In this document: piece after piece, positions 52,170 through 63,019 of the stretch
Position numbering within the stretch: position 1 is the first letter of the stretch
How the letters are laid out: each line of letters opens with the position of its first letter
Source: Pseudarthrobacter equi
GTDB lineage: Bacteria; Actinomycetota; Actinomycetes; Actinomycetales; Micrococcaceae
Direction of reading: 5' to 3'
Length of the DNA stretch: 64,000 nucleotides
Assembly: GCF_900105535.1 (NCBI RefSeq)
Contig: NZ_LT629779.1
Coordinates: forward strand, 1,922,001-1,986,000
Notes under the pieces: model-generated
Database searches by the model: none
Told to the model about the DNA's origin: nothing
Seen by the model: the letters and a program-made list of their open reading frames with translations, nothing else
Made by a program: the position numbers and the translations under genes

Positions 52170-53231
52170 ATGACTGAAACTTTGCCGGGCGATGCCATCC
52201 CGAACCCCACGGATGAAGCCGCCATCAACGCCGCTGTAGACCAGGCCGTCACCGCCATCGCCGGTGCTGCCACCCTTGACGAGCTGAAGGCGGTGAGGCT
52301 GGCGCACACGGGGGAGAAGTCACCCCTCAGCCTGGCCAACCGTGAAATCGGCAGGCTCCCCAAGGACCAGAAGGCGCTCGCCGGGAAGCTGATGGGCGCG
52401 TCCCGCGGCCGGGTCAACAAGGCGCTCGCCGACCGTACCGCGGTGCTGGAAGCCGAGAACGACGCACGGATCCTCCTCGAAGAGACTGTGGACGTCACTG
52501 CGGCACCCCGCCGTCGTCGTGCCGGTGCCCGGCACCCGCTGTCCACCCTGCAGGACCGCGTCTCGGACATTTTCGTGGGCATGGGCTGGGAAATCGCCGA
52601 AGGCCCGGAGGTGGAATCGGAGTGGTTCAACTTCGACGCCCTCAACTTCAAGCCGGACCACCCGGCACGGGAAATGCAGGACACGTTCTTCGTGGAGCCG
52701 CCCGAGGCACACCTCCTCATGCGCACGCACACGTCCCCGGTCCAGGTCCGCTCCATGCTGGAACGCGATCTGCCCATCTACGTCCTGTGCCCGGGCAAGG
52801 TGTTCCGCACCGATGAACTCGACGCCACGCACACCCCGGTGTTCCACCAGTTCGAGGGCCTGGCCATCGACAAGGGCCTGTCCATGGCAGACCTGCTCGG
52901 CACCCTGGAGCACTTCACCCGGCAGATGTTCGGCGACGAAGCGAAGGTCAGGCTGCGGCCCAACTACTTCCCGTTCACCGAGCCGTCCGCGGAACTGGAC
53001 ATCTTCCACCCGGGCGCCAAGGGCGGTCCGCGCTGGATCGAGTGGGGCGGCTGCGGCATGGTCAACCCCAACGTCCTCCGCGCTGCCGGCATCGACCCCG
53101 ATGTCTATTCAGGTTTTGCCTTCGGCATGGGCATCGAGCGTGCCCTCATGTTCCGCAACGAGGTCAGCGACATGCGCGACATGATCGAAGGCGATGTACG
53201 TTTCAGCGAGCACTTCGGGATGGAGATCTAA
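52170..53231 (+). CDS. pheS: Phenylalanine-tRNA ligase alpha subunit
   Basis: PheS, 353 residues, is the catalytic class II subunit. An N-terminal coiled-coil (about 20-100) is followed by motif 1 region [19 protein letters not shown], motif 2 [27 protein letters not shown] and motif 3 [14 protein letters not shown]. Full length. It forms an alpha2-beta2 enzyme with PheT, encoded 2 nt downstream. Confidence 0.98.
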
Positions 53232-53233
53232 CA

Positions 53234-55777
53234 GTGCGTATCCCCCTTTCCTGGCTGCGTGAATTCGCAGAGGTACCGGCCGGAGCCACGGCCGAAGACG
53301 TCATGGAAGAACTGGTCAAGGTCGGCTTCGAGGAAGAGGACGTCCACCGTCCCACCGATACCCTGCAGGGGCCGGTCGTGGTGGGCCAGGTCCTGAGCAT
53401 CGTCAAGGAACCGCAGACCAACGGCAAGACCATCAACTGGTGCCAGGTCCGCGTGGTTCCCGAGGGCGCGGAGCAGACCCTGACCGGAGAGGGCATCGAC
53501 CCTTCCGGAGTCCAGGGCATCATCTGCGGCGCCCACAACTTCGTGGAAGGCGACAAGGTAGTGGTCACGCTCCCGGGCGCCGTCCTGCCGGGTGACTTCC
53601 GCATCTCTGCCCGCAAGACGTATGGACACCTTTCCGCCGGCATGATCGCCTCCGTCCGTGAGCTGGGCATCGGCGATGACCACGACGGCATCCTGGTTCT
53701 CTCCCGCATCGGCCTTGATCCGGAAATCGGCACGGACGCGATGGAACTGCTGGGCCTCTACGACCAGGCAGCCGAAATCAACGTCACGCCGGACCGCGGC
53801 TACGCCTTCTCCATCCGCGGCGCGGCGCGCGAGTACGCGCATGCCACAGGAACCACCTTCACGGACCCCGCCAGCAAGGTGCAGGCGCCTGACGTGCTGT
53901 CCGGCGGCTACGGCGTCAAGCTCAACGACGACGCCCCCATCTACGGCAAGCCCGGCTGCGACCGCTTCGTGGCGCGCACCGTCCGCGGCGTGGACCCCAG
54001 CCGGCCCACCCCGCCATGGATGGCGTCACGCCTGCGCCTGGCCGGCATCCGCTCCATCTCCCTGCCGGTGGATATTTCCAACTACGTCATGCTCGAACTG
54101 GGCCAGCCCACGCACTGCTACGACCTGGACAAGCTGTCCGGGGACATCGTGGTGCGCCGCGCAACCGCGGGCGAGAAGATCACCACCCTCGATGACAAGG
54201 AACGCACCCTCGATCCTGAGGACCTGCTCATCACCGACGACTCCGGTGCCATCGGCATCGCCGGCGTCATGGGCGGCGCGGCAACCGAGGTGGGCGATAC
54301 GACGTCGAACATCCTGGTTGAGGCGGCCCACTTCGATGAGGTGTCCATCAGCCGTTCCCGCCGCCGGCACAAGCTGCCGTCCGAAGCGTCCAAGCGCTTC
54401 GAGCGCGGCGTCGACTGGCACGTGGCCGGCATCGCCGCCCAGCGCGTCGTGGACCTCCTGGTGGAACTGGCCGGCGGCACAGCCGACGACGCCGGAACCG
54501 ACGTCGGGACCGCACCGGAAACCGTCACCATTGATCTTCCCGCAGCGTTCGCGGCCGCCCGGATCGGCATCGACTTCACGGAAGAGCAGATCGTGACCGC
54601 CCTGGAGGACCTCGGCGCCGCGGTGGAAAAGCACGGCGACGGCTGGACGGTCACAGCGCCGAGCTGGCGGCACGACCTCGAGACCAAGGAAGACCTGTCC
54701 GAGGAAATCGCGCGGCTGGTGGGCTACGACAAGATTCCCGCCACGCTGCCGGTCGCTCCTCCGGGGCGTGGCCTGACGCGCCTGCAGCAGCAGCGCCGCC
54801 GGCTCATCCAGGCACTGGCCGACGCCGGTCTCACCGAAGTCCTGTCGTACCCGTTTGTCTCCAAGGCCGCCAACGATACGTTCGGCGTGGCGGAACAGGG
54901 TGCCGCCCGGCCCGCGCTTAAGCTGGCCAACCCCATCAGCGAAGAGCAGGGCTTCCTGCGCACCTCCGTCCTGCCGGGCCTGATCGAGGTGGCCAAGCGG
55001 AACCACTCCCGTGGCTTCCGCGACCTCGCCATCTTCGAGTCCGGGCTTGTGTTCCTGCCCGGCAGCACCATGGGCACCGCCTCCATTCCGCCGCTCGGCG
55101 CAAAGCCCGCCGACGAGGTGCTGGATGCACTGTACGACGGCGTCCCGGACCAGCCGTTCCACGTCGCCGCCGTCCTGACGGGGCATGATTCCCCGGCTGC
55201 CGCTGGGCACGAACCCCGGCTGTGGGACTGGGCGGACGCCCTGGACATCGCCCGCCTCGCCGGGGACGTCCTTGGGGTGGACCTCGTGGTCAGCCAGGGG
55301 AGCCACCAGGCGTTCCACCCGGGCCGCGCCGCACGCTTGTCGCTGCGGACGGGCGAGACCGTGGGTTACGGCGGTGAGCTGCACCCCAAGCTGCTGGCAG
55401 CCTCTGACATGCCCGCCCGCTCGGTGGCGCTGGAGATCAACGCCGACGCCCTGTTCGACGCGGCCCCGGACGTAATCGTGGCCCGCCACATTTCCACGTT
55501 CCCGGTGGCCACCCAGGACGTAGCGCTGGTGGTTCCCGCTGATGTGCCCGCGGACGACGTCCTCGCCGTACTCCGGGAAGGCGCCGGCGAACTGCTGGAG
55601 GACGTCGCCCTGTTCGACGTGTATGCCGGCAAGGGCATCGAAGACGGCAAGAAGTCACTGGCGTTCGGCCTGCGGTTCCGCGCCGCGGACCGCACCCTGA
55701 CGGCTGACGAAGCGTCCGCCGCACGCGAGGGCGCCGTGGCACTGGCCGCCGAGCGCTTCGGGGCAGTCCAGCGCTAG
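53234..55777 (+). CDS. pheT: Phenylalanine-tRNA ligase beta subunit
   Basis: PheT, 847 residues, starts at GTG 53234 with MRIPLSWLREFAEVPAGATA; the frame is open from 53042 inside pheS. Domains in order: the EMAP-like tRNA-binding domain (about 40-155, GVQGIICGAHNFVEGDKVVV), the B3/B4 editing domain (about 220-400), B5 (about 410-490, with LGAAVEKHGDGWTV and LVGYDKIPATLP), a catalytic-like core and the C-terminal ferredoxin-fold anticodon-binding domain (about 750-847, STFPVATQDVALVV). It ends just before a strong terminator. Confidence 0.98.
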   Translation: MRIPLSWLREFAEVPAGATAEDVMEELVKVGFEEEDVHRPTDTLQGPVVVGQVLSIVKEPQTNGKTINWCQVRVVPEGAEQTLTGEGIDPSGVQGIICGAHNFVEGDKVVVTLPGAVLPGDFRISARKTYGHLSAGMIASVRELGIGDDHDGILVLSRIGLDPEIGTDAMELLGLYDQAAEINVTPDRGYAFSIRGAAREYAHATGTTFTDPASKVQAPDVLSGGYGVKLNDDAPIYGKPGCDRFVARTVRGVDPSRPTPPWMASRLRLAGIRSISLPVDISNYVMLELGQPTHCYDLDKLSGDIVVRRATAGEKITTLDDKERTLDPEDLLITDDSGAIGIAGVMGGAATEVGDTTSNILVEAAHFDEVSISRSRRRHKLPSEASKRFERGVDWHVAGIAAQRVVDLLVELAGGTADDAGTDVGTAPETVTIDLPAAFAAARIGIDFTEEQIVTALEDLGAAVEKHGDGWTVTAPSWRHDLETKEDLSEEIARLVGYDKIPATLPVAPPGRGLTRLQQQRRRLIQALADAGLTEVLSYPFVSKAANDTFGVAEQGAARPALKLANPISEEQGFLRTSVLPGLIEVAKRNHSRGFRDLAIFESGLVFLPGSTMGTASIPPLGAKPADEVLDALYDGVPDQPFHVAAVLTGHDSPAAAGHEPRLWDWADALDIARLAGDVLGVDLVVSQGSHQAFHPGRAARLSLRTGETVGYGGELHPKLLAASDMPARSVALEINADALFDAAPDVIVARHISTFPVATQDVALVVPADVPADDVLAVLREGAGELLEDVALFDVYAGKGIEDGKKSLAFGLRFRAADRTLTADEASAAREGAVALAAERFGAVQR

Positions 55778-55799: not shown

Positions 55800-55853
55800 A
55801 AAGGGCGGGACGGCATGACTCCACAGCTTGTGGTTCGCGCCGTCCCGCCCTTT
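55800..55853 (+). terminator. pheST terminator enclosing the PPTase start codon
   Basis: A perfect 15-bp stem, AAAGGGCGGGACGGC (55800-55814) with its complement at 55839-55853, ends in TTTT. The 24-nt loop begins exactly with ATG 55815 and holds an inner CCACA/TGTGG hairpin. It should end pheST transcripts while also covering the start of the next gene. Confidence 0.9.
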
Positions 55854-56612
55854 TCGCTTGCCGGTGACGCCGCCGGGCTGATGCAGGACTCGGAAGGGCT
55901 CCTGGACGGCGCCGAGCTGCACCGCGCCCGCGCCATGGAGCCCGCGGCGGGCCACCGGTTCCTGGCCTCCCGCCTGGCCCAGCGCCGGTTCGCCGCTGAC
56001 CTGCTGGGCGTGGCCGAAACCAGCCTGGACGCCTGCTACAGCTGCCCGCAGTGCGGCGCCGGCGCGGACCTCAGCCACGGCAGGCCCGGCTACTCCTACC
56101 GGGGCACCCGGCTGCCGCTGGCCCTGAGTCTCTCCCGGGCCGCCGGCTGGACCCTGTTGGCGGCCGTCCCGGACGCAGGGCCGGACGTGCGTCTCGGCGT
56201 GGACATTGAGGACCCGGCCCATACCGGCTTCAGTGGATTTGCCGTGCTGGCGCTGACCACCGCCGAACACCGGGACATTCGGAGCGTGCAGCCGGAAGGG
56301 CGGCTGGCCGCCCAGGCGAAACTGTGGGCCCGGAAGGAAGCATGGCTGAAGATGACCGGCGAGGGGCTCCGTACAGCGCCCTCGTCCCTGGACGTGCGCG
56401 GACTGCCGGGCCTGAGGGACCTTACCCCCGCGGAAACCGGGCTGCCCGCGCAGCTGGCGGCCGCCGTCGCGCTTTCCGTTACGCCCGGACGCATCCAGGC
56501 AGCACCGGAACGGGGCATCAGCCTGCCGGAAGCGGCGGCAGAAGCTCCTCATACAGCCACGGGTGCAGCAACGCTTCGGTGTCGATGGCGGTGGCACGGT
56601 CCACGGCCATGA
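55815..56612 (+). CDS. 4'-phosphopantetheinyl transferase (Sfp type)
   Basis: The 265-residue protein attaches phosphopantetheine to carrier domains. The magnesium motif is LGVDIED (D130, E132) and the second motif WARKEAWLKMTGEG (W171, K174, E175, K179). A CxxCG-HGRP-like segment, CPQCGAGADLSHGRPGY, precedes them. It is convergent with an M1 peptidase, overlapping it by 95 bp, and next to a synthetase with a carrier domain, its likely substrate. The start is uncertain because a terminator stem surrounds ATG 55815; TTG 55782 is upstream in frame. About 20 C-terminal residues (RCRWRWHGPRP) lie in the overlap. Confidence 0.88.
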   Translation: MTPQLVVRAVPPFSLAGDAAGLMQDSEGLLDGAELHRARAMEPAAGHRFLASRLAQRRFAADLLGVAETSLDACYSCPQCGAGADLSHGRPGYSYRGTRLPLALSLSRAAGWTLLAAVPDAGPDVRLGVDIEDPAHTGFSGFAVLALTTAEHRDIRSVQPEGRLAAQAKLWARKEAWLKMTGEGLRTAPSSLDVRGLPGLRDLTPAETGLPAQLAAAVALSVTPGRIQAAPERGISLPEAAAEAPHTATGAATLRCRWRWHGPRP

Positions 56613-57876
56613 TGAAGTCATGGGTGCTGACCGAGCCGTGCCGGTGGGTGGCGGTCCACTCCTGCAGCAGCGCAAAGAACGCCAGGTCACCCACTGCCAT
56701 GCGGACGGCGTGCACCGCCAGGGCGCCCCTCTTGTAAACCCGGTCATCGAACATGTGCTGCGGCCCCGGGTCGCCCACCAGGAGGTCCTGCGCATCGGCC
56801 TTCAGTCCCCGCCACGCGGCGCCCGCCCGGGCAGCGACTGGCATCACGCCGGCTTCCTCGGACCAGATCCATTCGGCATAGCAGGCGAAGCCCTCGTGCA
56901 GCCAGATGTCCTGCCAGCCGGCGGCGGTCAGGGAGTTTCCGAACCACTGGTGCGAGAGCTCGTGGGCGATCAGCCGCTGCGACTCCCAGTCCGCGGCCAG
57001 GTGGTTGGGGCCCAGGATGGACAGCCCCTGGGCTTCAAGCGGGATCTCGAGCTCGTCCTCCGTGACCACCACTGTGTGGCCGGCGAACGGATAGGGCCCA
57101 AAGCAGCTGCTGAACGTCCGCATCATGGCCGGCTGCAGCGCCAGCCCGGCGCGTGCCTGGTCGGCGAGGGCGGGGGAGACTGCGACGTGCTGCGGCACCT
57201 GCGGTGCTGAACGCCCGGCATCCAGTTCCAGCAGGGCGTAGCGGCCGATCTGCACGGTGGCAAGGTACGCGGGCATCGACTCAGCCTGCTCGTACACCCA
57301 GGTTTCCCGGCTGGACCGGATGGTGCGGGCCTGCAGCACCCCGTTGCAGACGGCACGGTAGTTCGCGTCCGTGGTCACCGTGAACCTGTAGCTGGCCTTG
57401 TCGCGGGGATGGTCGTTGCACGGAAACCAGGATGGCGCGCCGTTGGGCTGCCCGGCCACCAGCACGCCGTCGGTCAGTTCTTCCCAGCCCACTTCGCCCC
57501 ACAGGCCGCGCCGGGGCGAGGGGCTGCCCCCGTACCGGACATCGAGGGTGAAGGGCACGTCCGCCTGGAGGGGAGCCGGGGTTGAGACCACCAGCTGCTC
57601 GGCGCGCTGGCTGAACCGCACTGCCCTGCCATTGAGCTGGACCTTGGAGGCGCGGAGCCCCACCAGGTCAAGGACAATGGCCGACGTCGGCACGCAGGCG
57701 ACGCCGTGCAGCACCGCCCTGCCGTTCAGGCGGTTGCTGGCCACGCGGTAGTCCAGGTCCAGTTCGTAGCGTTCCACCCGGTAGGCGTTGGTGCCGGCGC
57801 CGGGCATATAGGGATCGGGGGCAGCACCGCTGGACGCGGCCACGCTGCCGCGGGCGGCTGATGCTGGAGAACTCAT
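56518..57876 (-). CDS. M1 family zinc metallopeptidase
   Basis: The 452-residue gluzincin has HELSH (H305, E306, H309) and the third ligand E328 in WLHEGFACYAEW. The N-terminal beta domain runs from YRVERYELDLDY. There is no signal peptide. At the exopeptidase site the usual G-x-M-E-N is replaced by IPLEAQG (E281 kept), so its aminopeptidase specificity may differ. It follows the Pls-type synthetase by 15 nt, after GAAGGT, as the second gene of an operon. Epsilon-poly-lysine producers are reported to carry an M1-like polymer-degrading aminopeptidase near pls; a similar role is possible here but inferred. Confidence 0.92.
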   Translation of the reverse strand: MSSPASAARGSVAASSGAAPDPYMPGAGTNAYRVERYELDLDYRVASNRLNGRAVLHGVACVPTSAIVLDLVGLRASKVQLNGRAVRFSQRAEQLVVSTPAPLQADVPFTLDVRYGGSPSPRRGLWGEVGWEELTDGVLVAGQPNGAPSWFPCNDHPRDKASYRFTVTTDANYRAVCNGVLQARTIRSSRETWVYEQAESMPAYLATVQIGRYALLELDAGRSAPQVPQHVAVSPALADQARAGLALQPAMMRTFSSCFGPYPFAGHTVVVTEDELEIPLEAQGLSILGPNHLAADWESQRLIAHELSHQWFGNSLTAAGWQDIWLHEGFACYAEWIWSEEAGVMPVAARAGAAWRGLKADAQDLLVGDPGPQHMFDDRVYKRGALAVHAVRMAVGDLAFFALLQEWTATHRHGSVSTHDFIMAVDRATAIDTEALLHPWLYEELLPPLPAG

Positions 57877-57891
57877 GGCGACCTTCGGTTG

Positions 57892-60800
57892 CTAGGCAGA
57901 CGGTGTTGGAGGGCCGTTCCACGGACTGACAGGGTTGCCCATCCAATACGTGGCGGCCGGGACGGACTCGCCGCGCATCACCAGGGACGCAGGGCCCACC
58001 GTTCCGCCGGCACCCACGCTGGCCTGGGGCAGGATAACCCCGTGCGGGCCCATGGTGGCCCCGTCTTCGAGGGTAACAGCGTCAATGCTCATCACCCTGT
58101 CGTGGAACAGGTGCGTCTGCACCACGCAGCCCCGGTTGACGGTGGCGTTACGGCCGAGGGTCACCAGGTCCGCTTCGGGCAGCCAGTAGCTTTCACACCA
58201 GGTGCCCGTCCCGATCTTGGCCCCGAGGGCACGAAGCCACCAGACCAGCGCCGGGGTGCCGGACGCGGCCCGGGCGAACCACGGTGCACTGACAAGCTCG
58301 ATGAAGCTGTCCACCACTTCGTTGCGCCAGATGAACGAGCTCCAAAGGGGGTGCTCGCCGGCCCGGATCCGTCCCACCAGGATCCACTTGGCAGCGACGG
58401 CGGAGAACGCCGCCACGAAACCGGCCAGCAGCATGACCACGCCGCTGAGCAGGGCTGCCACCCCGTAGTTGAAGGTGGCGGCCAACCAGTCGAAGACCAG
58501 CATGGCGGCGCCGGCAATAGCCACCGTGAGCATAACGGGCAGGAACCTGCAGAGCTCCCACAGCGTCCTGGCCACCTTAAGCTTCAGCGGGGGCTGGAAG
58601 GTGCGGGTGTCGTCGGAGGCGATGGCTGTGCGGCGGAGGCGGACCGGCGGACTGCCCAGCCAGGACGTGCCGGACTTGGCCTTGGCCGGCGTTGCGGAGA
58701 GGACAGCGACCAGCGAGTTCTTGGGAACGTTCCGGCCCGCTGCTGTCATGCCGGAGTTGCCCAGGAAGGACCGTTTGCCGATCTTGGCCGGGGCCACGCG
58801 AAGCCACCCGCCGTCCAGCTCGTAGGAGGCCACCATGGTGTCGTCCGCCAGGAAGGCACCTTCCCCCACGGTGGTCATCTTGGGGATCAGCAGCACCGTG
58901 GAGGCTTCCACGTTCTTGCCGATTTTTGCTCCCAGGAGGCGCAGCCACACAGGCGTGAAGAGGCTGGCGTAGATGGGGAACAGCAGGTCCCGGGCAAGGT
59001 CGAGGACGCGTTCGGTGGCCCAGATCTGCCAGCCCACCCGGCTGCGTACCCGGTGGTAGCCCTCGGTGATGCCGACGCTGAGGAGCCGGGTTGCGGCCAG
59101 GATGAGGAGGGTGTTGGCGGCGAACCAGGTGAGCGCGGCGGGCGCGAGGGCCAGCAGGAGCCGGGGCAGTGCGCCGCTCAGGGAGGTGCCGCCCTGGATG
59201 AACAGGTAGGCCACCCAGGCGGCCGCCGCTGCGGACACGAAGGGGATCAGGGTCAGTACTGCCGAGGCCAGCGCGAATCCGCCGAACCAGGCCTTGGCAG
59301 CCACGGGGCCCAGGACGGGTGCTTCAGGAGCGGAATGCCTGGCTTTGCCCTGCCGGCGGGCAGGTGACCCGGCCACCAGCTGCCCGGCCTTGACCTTCCC
59401 GGAGACCGCCGAGCCCGCGTCAACCTGCGCTCCTGCGCCGATGGACGTTCCGGGCATCAGCGTGCTGCGGGCGCCTACCGAGGCGCCGGCGCCGATGCGG
59501 ACGGCGCCAATGTGGACATGGTCACCGTCGATCCACCACCCGGACAGATCCACCTCCGGCTCCACATTGGCGCCACGGCCCAGCGTCAGCAGCCCGGTCA
59601 CCGGCGGCAGCGAGTGCAGCTGGACGTCCCGGCCAATCTTCGCGCCGAGGGCCCGGGCGTAGTAGGGCACCCACGGTGCGCTGGCCAGGCTGATGGCGCC
59701 TGCCAGGTCCTGGATCTGCTCTGCCAGCCAGAGCCGGAGGTGCACCCGGCCGGAGCGTGGATATGTGCCGGGCCGCACGCCGCGCAGGAGGATCCGTGCG
59801 GCGGCCACCGCCAGCAGCATCCGACCCGCCGGGCTGACGAACACCAGCCACGAAGCTGCCACCCACCACCATGAAACGGTGGGAGCTGCGGCGAACCCGG
59901 CAGCGCCCGCCAGCAGGTTGTTGGCTGCCATCAGGTAGGTCAGCCAGCGCATGCCCACCAGGATGTGCAGGGGAACTCCCATCAGCGTCTGGAACACCTG
60001 GGATTTGAGTGCGGTGGGCTGCACGGTGCGGATCGGTGCCGGGCCGAAGGACCCATCGGGCTGTGATTGCCGTGCCAGCTCCACCAGCGCTCCCACCCGG
60101 GGTGTGGCGTAGATGTCGGCAACGGTGATGGTGGGGTAGCGGGCCCGGAGGGCGGACACCAGTTGCGCCGCGGACAGGGATCCGCCGCCGTACGCGAAGA
60201 AGTCCGCGTCGAGCGATGTCACCGGACTGCCCAGGATGCTGCTCCATTGCTCCACGATCCAGGTGGCGTCCTCGGGGAGGTTTAGGGGAGCAGCATCCGC
60301 CTCTGCCGCACCTGCACCGGCGAGCGGCCAGGGCAGCGCGTGCCTGTCCACCTTGCCGCTGGTCTTGGTGGGCAGCGAATCCACCACCGTCAGGAGGGGC
60401 ACCAGCGCAGCCGGCAGGCTTCCTGCCAGGTGCCTGCGTGCCTCAGCCAGGTCCAGGCCTTCCCCGGCAACAGGTGCCAGGTAGCCCACCAGGATCTGGT
60501 TGCCGGCCGCCGTCGTCTGCACCGCGGCGGCCGCGCCGGCAACGCCGGGCAGCGACTGCATGGCGGAGTCGATTTCGCCCAGTTCAATCCGGCGGCCGCC
60601 CAGTTTGACCTGCTCGTCGGCGCGGCCCTGGAATATGAGGCCTGCCTGCTCGAAGCGGACAAGGTCGCCGGAGCGGTAGGCGCGGTCCCAGCCCAGGATG
60701 GCCATGGGAGCGTACTTTTCGGCGTCTTTGGCAGGGTCAAGGTACCGGGCCAGCCCGACGCCGCCGATGATCAGCTCACCCGTCCCGCCTTCGGCCACAG

Positions 60801-61944
60801 GAATGCCGTGGTCGTCCACGACAGCGAGGTCCCAGCCATCCAGGGGCAGGCCAATCCGTACCGGGCCGGAACCGTTGAGGGGGGCCGCGCAGGCCACCAC
60901 TGTCGCTTCGGTGGGACCGTAGGTATTCCAGACCTCGCGGCCTTCCACGGCCAGTCGCTCCGCCAGTTCGGGCGGGCAGGCCTCACCGCCGAAGATGAGC
61001 AGGCGGACGTTTTCCAGGGATTCGGCCGGCCAGAGTGCCGCGAGGGTGGGCACGGTGGACACGGCGGTGATGCCGTGGTTGATCAGCCAGGGGCCAAGGT
61101 CCATGCCCGTACGGACCAAGGCACGCGGTGCGGGGACAAGGCAGGCACCGTGCCGCCAGGCGAGCCACATTTCTTCGCACGAAGCGTCGAAGGCCACGGA
61201 GAGCCCGGCCAACACCCGGTCCTGGGGTCCCAAGGGATCGCCGTGCAGGAAAATCCTCGCCTCCGCGTCCACGAACGCGGCGGCCGAGCGGTGCTGGACC
61301 GCCACGCCCTTGGGTGTCCCTGTGGAGCCGGACGTGAAGATGATCCAGGCATCGTCATCCGGCACAGGTGGGCGGGCGCCCGCAAAGGGCCCTGTGCGGC
61401 GGCCTCCCGCCGTGCCGGGCCTGATCACCTGCCCGCCTTCCATGACGGCGGCGACCTTGGCCTCGTCAAAAACCAGCCGGGCCCGTTCGTCGGGATCGTC
61501 CGCGTCAACGGGGACGTAGGCCGCGCCCACCAGCAGGACGGCCAGGATCGCCACATACAACTCGTTGGTGCCTGAAGGAATCCGCACGCCGATCCGGTCG
61601 CCGGCACCGAGGCCAGCCTGGTGGAGGCGGCGGCCGGCAGACCGTACTTCGTCCATGAGCTGGGCGTAACTGAGGGACACACGGCCGTCGTCGAGCGCCG
61701 AGGCGTCGGGGAAACGGGCGGCGGAGTCCTGGAGGATATCAATCAGCGTCCGGACGGGCGGGGCGGCCGGAGACCCTTGGAACTGCGGTGCGTGCGCGCC
61801 CGCAGGTTGCGCCGAACCCGGAGTTGAAGCCCCTGCAGGCAGCGGTCCGGGTGAGTCATCGGCCTGCAAACCGCCGGATGCATGGGGAGCGGCCGGCGTG
61901 GCGCCGGAATGGATATCCCCAAGGGGGACCTGCTGCTGAGTCAC
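57892..61944 (-). CDS. Pls/PosA-type homopoly(amino acid) synthetase
   Basis: The 1350-residue single-module synthetase has an adenylation domain (about 65-540: FTSGSTGTPKG 203-213, TYGPTEATVV 341-350, RSGDLVR, TSGKVDR with K531) and a carrier domain with S589 in YGGGSLSA. It then has six membrane helices in three pairs (about 655-717, 886-953, 1130-1195), each followed by a soluble left-handed-beta-helix-like domain starting LGAKIG (768, 1004, 1240). This is the layout of epsilon-poly-lysine synthetase. Pocket residues D253, A254, E257, S296, I317, G319, T341, V349, V350 and K531 resemble the lysine code. GTG 61944 is chosen after CAAAAT; the frame is open to 62217. Confidence 0.93.
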   Translation of the reverse strand: MTQQQVPLGDIHSGATPAAPHASGGLQADDSPGPLPAGASTPGSAQPAGAHAPQFQGSPAAPPVRTLIDILQDSAARFPDASALDDGRVSLSYAQLMDEVRSAGRRLHQAGLGAGDRIGVRIPSGTNELYVAILAVLLVGAAYVPVDADDPDERARLVFDEAKVAAVMEGGQVIRPGTAGGRRTGPFAGARPPVPDDDAWIIFTSGSTGTPKGVAVQHRSAAAFVDAEARIFLHGDPLGPQDRVLAGLSVAFDASCEEMWLAWRHGACLVPAPRALVRTGMDLGPWLINHGITAVSTVPTLAALWPAESLENVRLLIFGGEACPPELAERLAVEGREVWNTYGPTEATVVACAAPLNGSGPVRIGLPLDGWDLAVVDDHGIPVAEGGTGELIIGGVGLARYLDPAKDAEKYAPMAILGWDRAYRSGDLVRFEQAGLIFQGRADEQVKLGGRRIELGEIDSAMQSLPGVAGAAAAVQTTAAGNQILVGYLAPVAGEGLDLAEARRHLAGSLPAALVPLLTVVDSLPTKTSGKVDRHALPWPLAGAGAAEADAAPLNLPEDATWIVEQWSSILGSPVTSLDADFFAYGGGSLSAAQLVSALRARYPTITVADIYATPRVGALVELARQSQPDGSFGPAPIRTVQPTALKSQVFQTLMGVPLHILVGMRWLTYLMAANNLLAGAAGFAAAPTVSWWWVAASWLVFVSPAGRMLLAVAAARILLRGVRPGTYPRSGRVHLRLWLAEQIQDLAGAISLASAPWVPYYARALGAKIGRDVQLHSLPPVTGLLTLGRGANVEPEVDLSGWWIDGDHVHIGAVRIGAGASVGARSTLMPGTSIGAGAQVDAGSAVSGKVKAGQLVAGSPARRQGKARHSAPEAPVLGPVAAKAWFGGFALASAVLTLIPFVSAAAAAWVAYLFIQGGTSLSGALPRLLLALAPAALTWFAANTLLILAATRLLSVGITEGYHRVRSRVGWQIWATERVLDLARDLLFPIYASLFTPVWLRLLGAKIGKNVEASTVLLIPKMTTVGEGAFLADDTMVASYELDGGWLRVAPAKIGKRSFLGNSGMTAAGRNVPKNSLVAVLSATPAKAKSGTSWLGSPPVRLRRTAIASDDTRTFQPPLKLKVARTLWELCRFLPVMLTVAIAGAAMLVFDWLAATFNYGVAALLSGVVMLLAGFVAAFSAVAAKWILVGRIRAGEHPLWSSFIWRNEVVDSFIELVSAPWFARAASGTPALVWWLRALGAKIGTGTWCESYWLPEADLVTLGRNATVNRGCVVQTHLFHDRVMSIDAVTLEDGATMGPHGVILPQASVGAGGTVGPASLVMRGESVPAATYWMGNPVSPWNGPPTPSA

Positions 61945-62053: not shown

Positions 62054-63019
62054 TCAGGGAACCAGCACCACCTTGCCAGTGGTGCGGCGGCCTTCGAGGT
62101 CCCGGTGCGCCTGCTCTGCCTGGGACAGCGGATAGCGCCCGCCGACGCGGACCTTGAGGGCGCCATCAGCCGCGGCTGCGAAAATTTCGCCCGAGCGCCA
62201 CCGCCGCTCGGCGGCATCCTGGAGGTAGTGCCCCATGGTGGGCCGGGTCAGGAACAGCGAGCCGCCGGCATTGAGGCGCTGCGGATCCACCGGCGGCACA
62301 GGGCCGGACGCGGCGCCGAAGAGCACCAGGGTTCCGCGGATCCGAAGGGCCTCCAGTGAGCCGTCGAACGTATCCTTGCCAACGCCGTCGTACACCACGT
62401 CCGCGCCGGTGCCGCCGGTAATCTCCCGGACCCGCGCCGCAAAGCCCTCGTACCGCAGCACGTGGTCAGCGCCTGCCTCACGGGCCAGCTCTTCCTTTTC
62501 GTCGGTGGACACGGTGGTGATGACCTGGGCGCCGCGGGCCTTCAGCAGCTGGATGAGGAGCAGCCCCACACCGCCGGCCCCGGCGTGCAGCAGGACGGTG
62601 TGGCCCGGTTCCACCTTGAAGGTGGAGTTCATCAGGTAATGCGCCGTCATGCCCTGCAGGGGGAGGGCTGCTGCGGTGAAGTCATCCAGACCGGCCGGTA
62701 CCGGGAGTGCGGCGTCCTCGTCCACCAGCGCATAGTCCGCGTAACAGTTAATGCCCTCCGCCGTGGCCACGCGGTCACCGGCGGTGAACGCGGTCACCCC
62801 GTCGCCCACCGCCTCCACTGTGCCGGCAGCTTCGGAGCCGGGGATGAAGGGGTACTGGACCTTGTAGACACCGCCGCGCTTGTAGGTATCAATGAAGTTG
62901 ACCCCGGCCGCTCCGACCTTGACCAGCAACTGTCCGGGGCCGGGGACCGGCCGGTCAACCTCCGTGTACTCCAGTACTTCCGGTCCGCCTGCCTGGCGTG
63001 CGACGATTGCGTGCGTCAT
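62054..63019 (-). CDS. NADPH:quinone oxidoreductase (zinc-independent MDR family)
   Basis: The 321-residue medium-chain reductase starts AIVARQAGGPEVLEYTEVDRP and has GVNFIDTYKRGGVYK, the nucleotide fold HAGAGGVGLLLIQLLKARGA and the loop YEGFAARVREITGGTGADVVYDGVG. This is the zeta-crystallin/QOR branch, which lacks the zinc cysteines of alcohol dehydrogenases. It reduces quinones or related acceptors. ATG 63019 follows GGAAGGGGAAGC. It lies 109 nt upstream of the synthetase gene on the same strand; whether they share a transcript is open. Confidence 0.95.
   Translation of the reverse strand: MTHAIVARQAGGPEVLEYTEVDRPVPGPGQLLVKVGAAGVNFIDTYKRGGVYKVQYPFIPGSEAAGTVEAVGDGVTAFTAGDRVATAEGINCYADYALVDEDAALPVPAGLDDFTAAALPLQGMTAHYLMNSTFKVEPGHTVLLHAGAGGVGLLLIQLLKARGAQVITTVSTDEKEELAREAGADHVLRYEGFAARVREITGGTGADVVYDGVGKDTFDGSLEALRIRGTLVLFGAASGPVPPVDPQRLNAGGSLFLTRPTMGHYLQDAAERRWRSGEIFAAAADGALKVRVGGRYPLSQAEQAHRDLEGRRTTGKVVLVP

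Follow-up and report, generated by a model that had tools for sequence, protein, structure and literature searches.

A three-gene locus in Pseudarthrobacter equi very probably forms an epsilon-poly-L-lysine (epsilon-PL) module, with genes for synthesis, turnover, and activation. The locus lies in what we call the window, the whole stretch of 64,000 nucleotides that we analyzed. It comprises a synthetase gene (pls), a gene for an M1 zinc metallopeptidase, and a gene for a 4'-phosphopantetheinyl transferase (PPTase). Together, pls and the M1 gene make up the known pls-pldII operon, and the less known part of the locus is the companion PPTase. In our sample, only Micrococcaceae and Microbacteriaceae have it next to pls, and it is probably dedicated to the pls operon.

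The pls gene (57892..61944, minus strand) encodes a protein of 1350 amino acids, assuming that translation begins with the GTG at 61944. The frame opens with an ATG (at 62217) that falls within the preceding gene, which makes the GTG the likely start. (No clear ribosome site was seen before the GTG.) The preceding gene encodes a quinone oxidoreductase-like protein (62054..63019, minus strand). It adjoins pls in many Micrococcaceae loci, and it is probably context that lies outside the module.

In profile searches, the synthetase matched TIGR02353 at 711.8 bits (the cut-off is 423.1) across the full model (positions 1-695 of 695). It also matched TIGR01733 at 322.8 bits (cut-off 317.4). It has one adenylation (A) domain (PF00501) and one carrier domain (PF00550; 42.7 bits in Pfam, cut-off 20.8) that bears the serine, S589, and no condensation or thioesterase families were among its 5 Pfam matches at E 0.1. 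A generic AMP-binding enzyme was considered and rejected because the TIGR02353 score is far above the cut-off. In the AlphaFold model of residues 545-1350 (46 sequences, mean pLDDT 88.7, pTM 0.89), the carrier domain is followed by long helices and three strand-rich regions, with long helices preceding each region. According to Foldseek, the strand-rich regions resemble hexapeptide-repeat acyltransferases. (The whole-query TM-scores are low, 0.08-0.14, because every match spans just one part of Pls, and the beta-helix likeness rests on Foldseek because the VIA-align rows mostly hit the carrier domain.) Hydropathy gave the second and third pairs of helices and part of the first pair. The model thus predicts the arrangement expected of a Pls, in which three pairs of membrane helices, six in all, surround three soluble domains in tandem. 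We describe the layout of the protein as an A domain, a carrier, and the TIGR02353 polymerase part with its membrane helices and putative beta-helix domains C1-C3. The closest named genome is that of Pseudarthrobacter chlorophenolicus, at 95% across the synthetase.

Downstream of pls, on the same strand, is the gene for the M1 peptidase (56518..57876, minus strand; 452 amino acids), and the spacer from the pls stop to the M1 start is 15 nt (57877..57891). The PPTase gene (55815..56612, plus strand; 265 amino acids) is convergent with the M1 gene. An earlier, sequence-only reading had proposed this arrangement: a 1350-residue synthetase of the Pls/PosA type with six helices and three C-terminal domains, a peptidase 15 nt further on, and an adjacent, convergent PPTase that could act on S589. 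It had itself named the TIGR02353 search, and its description held up, including the position of the serine. It had also listed three outcomes that would count against it (nothing beyond a generic AMP-binding match, no C-terminal domains in the predicted structure, and no linkage of the genes in relatives). None of these occurred, and relatives do show the genes linked.

The PPTase is of the Sfp type. It matches PF01648 at 42.6 bits (cut-off 25), and it has D130 and E132 (D-x-E, for metal binding) and W171-A176 (W-x-x-K-E-A). In an alignment of 20 sequences, D130, W171, E175, A176, and K179 are invariant, G128 is kept, K174 is present in 90% or more, and E132 is absent from several. We take G128, D130, W171, E175, and K179 to fit the Sfp-type motifs. 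At its 3' end, the PPTase frame overlaps the M1 gene in antisense by 95 nt (56518-56612). This tail of the protein is not conserved, as the PPTase of the nearest relative (L091) ends ahead of the M1 gene. Sfp-type PPTases of nonribosomal peptide synthetase (NRPS) clusters have PF01648 in common with this one, which instead adjoins an epsilon-PL operon.

The main alternative for the PPTase is that it is a bystander, with the NRPS or fatty-acid carriers as its substrates and a chance location next to pheST. We consider this unlikely. In its favor, the PPTase gene is co-directional with, and 37 nt behind, the gene that we take to be pheT (53234..55777, plus strand), which is preceded by what is presumably pheS (52170-53231). 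This chromosomal setting was not seen in several other loci that have both pls and the PPTase. Among the loci from named genomes, 22 of 33 from Micrococcaceae and 5 of 8 from Microbacteriaceae have a convergent PPTase gene no more than 800 nt from the M1 gene. Of these 27 linked loci, 11 have no pheT in the available stretch (all 5 from Microbacteriaceae and 6 of the 22 from Micrococcaceae). One of the 11, L095, is flanked by about 1 kb only, too little to judge. The link between the PPTase and pls is therefore not a matter of neighborhood inertia around pheST.

Outside the two families, a profile search within the other actinobacterial loci found a convergent PPTase within 800 nt in 0 of 39 named loci. 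(This search may miss distant PPTases, and the stretch for L131 is too short to judge.) This too fits a bystander, as does the presence of PF01648 matches in all 13 of such genomes that were searched (this concerns presence, not distance to pls). Within the window's family, on the other side, 82 of 149 genomes have TIGR02353 above the cut-off, and a match to the PPTase alignment lies on the same contig within 10 kb in 69 of the 82 and within 3.5 kb in 62. (Some of the 82 also have, or only have, Pls-like proteins of other classes.) Any match to the PPTase alignment (E 0.001) was found in 77 of the 82 genomes with TIGR02353 but in 25 of the 67 without it (Fisher P 4e-14, a value that ignores kinship and also counts other Sfp-like PPTases).

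The place of the PPTase beside pls is not strictly needed, given the exceptions. Among the 11 other Micrococcaceae loci, 5 have the PPTase 2.5-6.4 kb away, no PPTase was seen in 4, and the stretch for L092 does not reach far enough to judge. In L104, the PPTase gene is in tandem, directly behind. Also, a match within 10 kb is missing from 2 of the 8 genomes of the window's genus (G009 and G106). G009 has a full-length pls without an adjacent PPTase. It also has fragmentary TIGR02353 matches (G009:C1:867334-874288 and G009:C14:1819-7714), and one set is about 3 kb from a PPTase match.

The other PPTases of the window's own genome also argue against a bystander. The genome encodes three PPTases, and its five carrier domains are spread over three proteins. 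Three of the carriers are in one NRPS frame of 3559 residues, which has adenylation, condensation, and thioesterase domains, and this NRPS has a nearby PPTase of its own (an Sfp-like protein encoded 3.3 kb from the nearest NRPS carrier). The fourth is in the acyl carrier protein AcpP (134.6 bits, cut-off 84), and a holo-ACP synthase, AcpS, is encoded elsewhere in the genome (182.5 bits, cut-off 107). The fifth carrier is that of Pls. The simplest pairing is the NRPS with its neighboring PPTase, AcpP with AcpS, and Pls with the window's PPTase. We found no description of a PPTase beside pls in the literature that we searched, which is a weak negative since most subscription journals fall outside its coverage.

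We now turn to the peptidase, which matches PF01433 (89.5 bits, cut-off 27.7) and PF17900 (58.6 bits, cut-off 25.8). It has HEXXH at residues 305-309, and H305, E306, H309, E328, and Y381 are conserved in all 116 aligned proteins. It reads IPLEAQ (with E281), with the P and the E in 116 of 116, at the segment where aminopeptidases carry the GxMEN motif. Across many actinobacterial genera, 76 of 80 named loci have an M1 open frame that overlaps the pls stop or begins no more than 100 nt from it (these gaps were taken between stop-to-stop frames, not true starts), so we rejected chance adjacency. In the other 4 (L138, L150, L151, and L157), the M1 frame is 433-2071 nt further on, on the same strand. 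Similarly, the M1 gene is beside pls and on the same strand in 38 of 40 stretches around a TIGR02353 match in genomes of the family (3 of the 38 repeat named loci). The two exceptions are L044, which has a different class of Pls-like protein, and L082, which was chosen as a representative of the short-frame class.

Could the M1 enzyme be a housekeeping aminopeptidase that is in the operon by happenstance? The best 120 of its 7306 relatives from a protein search have generic names such as M1 family metallopeptidase, aminopeptidase N, or peptidase (a named PldII is absent from these 120), and the genome encodes a 37% identical paralog elsewhere (a second M1 protein, G000:C1:528902-530281, in L172). 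Against this stand the proximity of M1 frames to pls across so many genera and the activity of PldII from Streptomyces albulus, whose gene is in the same place and which is reported to degrade epsilon-PL (PMC9223678, PMC8117764). We therefore regard a housekeeping role as improbable, and we continue to view the protein as PldII-like. S. albulus is described as having two degrading enzymes, Pld and PldII, and repression of pldII lowers tolerance (PMC9223678). In S. albulus, too, a metallopeptidase gene lies directly after pls. We liken the two peptidases by description and gene place, and their lengths are similar (452 amino acids versus a reading frame given as 1404 for pldII; PMC9223678). The junctions differ, with a 15-nt spacer in the window and a 4-bp overlap reported for S. 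albulus (PMC4361855).

The identity of the monomer is suggested by the A domain. The best PDB match of Pls is the adenylation domain of the S. albulus epsilon-PL synthase (7wew; 637.4 bits), with 317 of 481 aligned residues identical (66%). The ten-residue pocket code, DAESIGTVVK, is identical in the two proteins (we mapped the pocket positions by GrsA numbering). Both this code and S589 are kept in all 116 aligned Pls, that is, the window's protein and 115 distinct relatives from the 118 loci that have both Pls and M1 matches. A caveat is that this constancy is partly due to selection, because the relatives were picked by likeness to the query or the family and by their M1 neighbor. PosA, the delta-poly-L-ornithine synthetase of Acinetobacter baumannii, belongs to the same family and has the same layout, and three beta-helices are predicted there too (PMC10522769). 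In PosA the code is DMEHNGTVSK, with Met218 at the second position, whereas the window's Pls has Ala there, as reported for lysine enzymes (PMC10522769). Given these codes, we rejected poly-ornithine as the product. More generally, a different cationic homopolymer (of ornithine, diaminobutyrate, diaminopropionate, or beta-lysine), with a peptidase tuned to that polymer, is very unlikely: the TIGR02353 name covers Pls and PosA jointly, and the relative in L044 has another code, but the window shares the S. albulus code and lacks PosA's Met, and a peptidase neighbor is reported for pls while the other three synthetases are in a different gene context (PMC8117764). Thus, what the sequence-only reading had called a poly-amino-acid system would, judging from the specificity code, be a poly-lysine system.

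Other Pls-like proteins turned up among the relatives. The one in L044 (L044:8365-12666, from G122) has an A domain but has no M1 gene within the stretch examined, and it probably uses another monomer because its pocket code is DFECLSVVTK. Sister genomes also contain a split Pls-like cluster (L083:8416-11694, minus strand; L084:8472-11627, minus strand; L085:264-6058, plus strand; L086:7552-10722, plus strand; and L088:6278-16613, plus strand), and L087, L089, and L090 contain similar clusters. (L084 and L085 are both from G086, which belongs to the window's genus.) Each of the four proteins that we scanned (from L083 to L086) combines three tandem carriers and a full TIGR02353 polymerase in one chain, with no A domain. 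Behind the gene for this fusion, L085 and L088 encode a separate A-carrier protein, as do L087, L089, and L090 according to an alignment. The cluster in L088 also includes PALP, ornithine-cyclodeaminase-like, TauD, and LuxE-like genes, and L085 has cyclodeaminase- and LuxE-like genes. In S. albulus PD-1, a pair of cysteine-synthase-like and cyclodeaminase-like proteins is reported to produce diaminopropionate (PMC4668381). The split cluster may be a new architecture, with a diaminopropionate-type product. This relative without an A domain is more unusual than the module in the window.

How might the three proteins of the window work together? The PPTase would use CoA as the donor of phosphopantetheine and attach this group to the carrier of Pls at S589. 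The A domain, with the same code as the proven enzyme, would adenylate L-lysine and load the carrier. By analogy with PldII, the M1 metallopeptidase, which is probably co-transcribed with pls, would cut the polymer and limit self-harm. We scanned for promoters and saw no sigma-70-like site, and there was 1 terminator-like site versus a mean of 2.6 in shuffled sequences, so we make no claim about transcription.

The sequence-only reading had also placed the module outside the classical Streptomyces producers. It is indeed in Pseudarthrobacter, but such a location is not new. Jiang et al. (2021) proved that Pls from Corynebacterium variabile synthesizes epsilon-PL in S. coelicolor, showed a pls-peptidase operon in C. 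variabile, and listed pls homologs for Arthrobacter, Microbacterium, Glutamicibacter, and others (PMC8117764). Such clusters are also reported in Agrococcus and Microbacterium (PMC12067966), and there is a NAPAA cluster call for a Pseudarthrobacter genome (PMC12025171). In addition, TIGR02353 was above the cut-off in all 8 genomes of the window's genus that we examined, including its own. Given these published operons and calls and our own counts, the pls-pldII pair is not new and its presence in this genus is unsurprising. The window's Pls is like those of S. albulus and C. variabile in the order of A domain, carrier, and polymerase, in the specificity code, in the full-length family match, and in the downstream peptidase gene. 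It differs from S. albulus Pls in that the A domains are 66% identical, the host is Pseudarthrobacter-like, and a PPTase gene is beside the operon.

The operon in the window may be silent. In the C. variabile study, the product was obtained only with the S. albulus promoter in S. coelicolor, with none from C. variabile culture, and C. glutamicum carrying the C. variabile pls made the protein but no product (PMC8117764).

Overall, we lean towards the view that the poly-lysine operon of Micrococcaceae and Microbacteriaceae is a self-contained cassette, in which a dedicated PPTase accompanies pls and pldII from one chromosomal site to another and frees the cassette from dependence on the other PPTases of the host. 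The linked PPTase is a candidate for co-expression when poly-lysine synthetases are transferred to new hosts. Missing carrier loading is one candidate reason for the lack of product from C. variabile pls in C. glutamicum. Polylysine is a natural preservative. The wide spread of the operon makes its ecological role in soil testable, and if the operon is expressed, then common soil arthrobacters would be producers of this antimicrobial food preservative.
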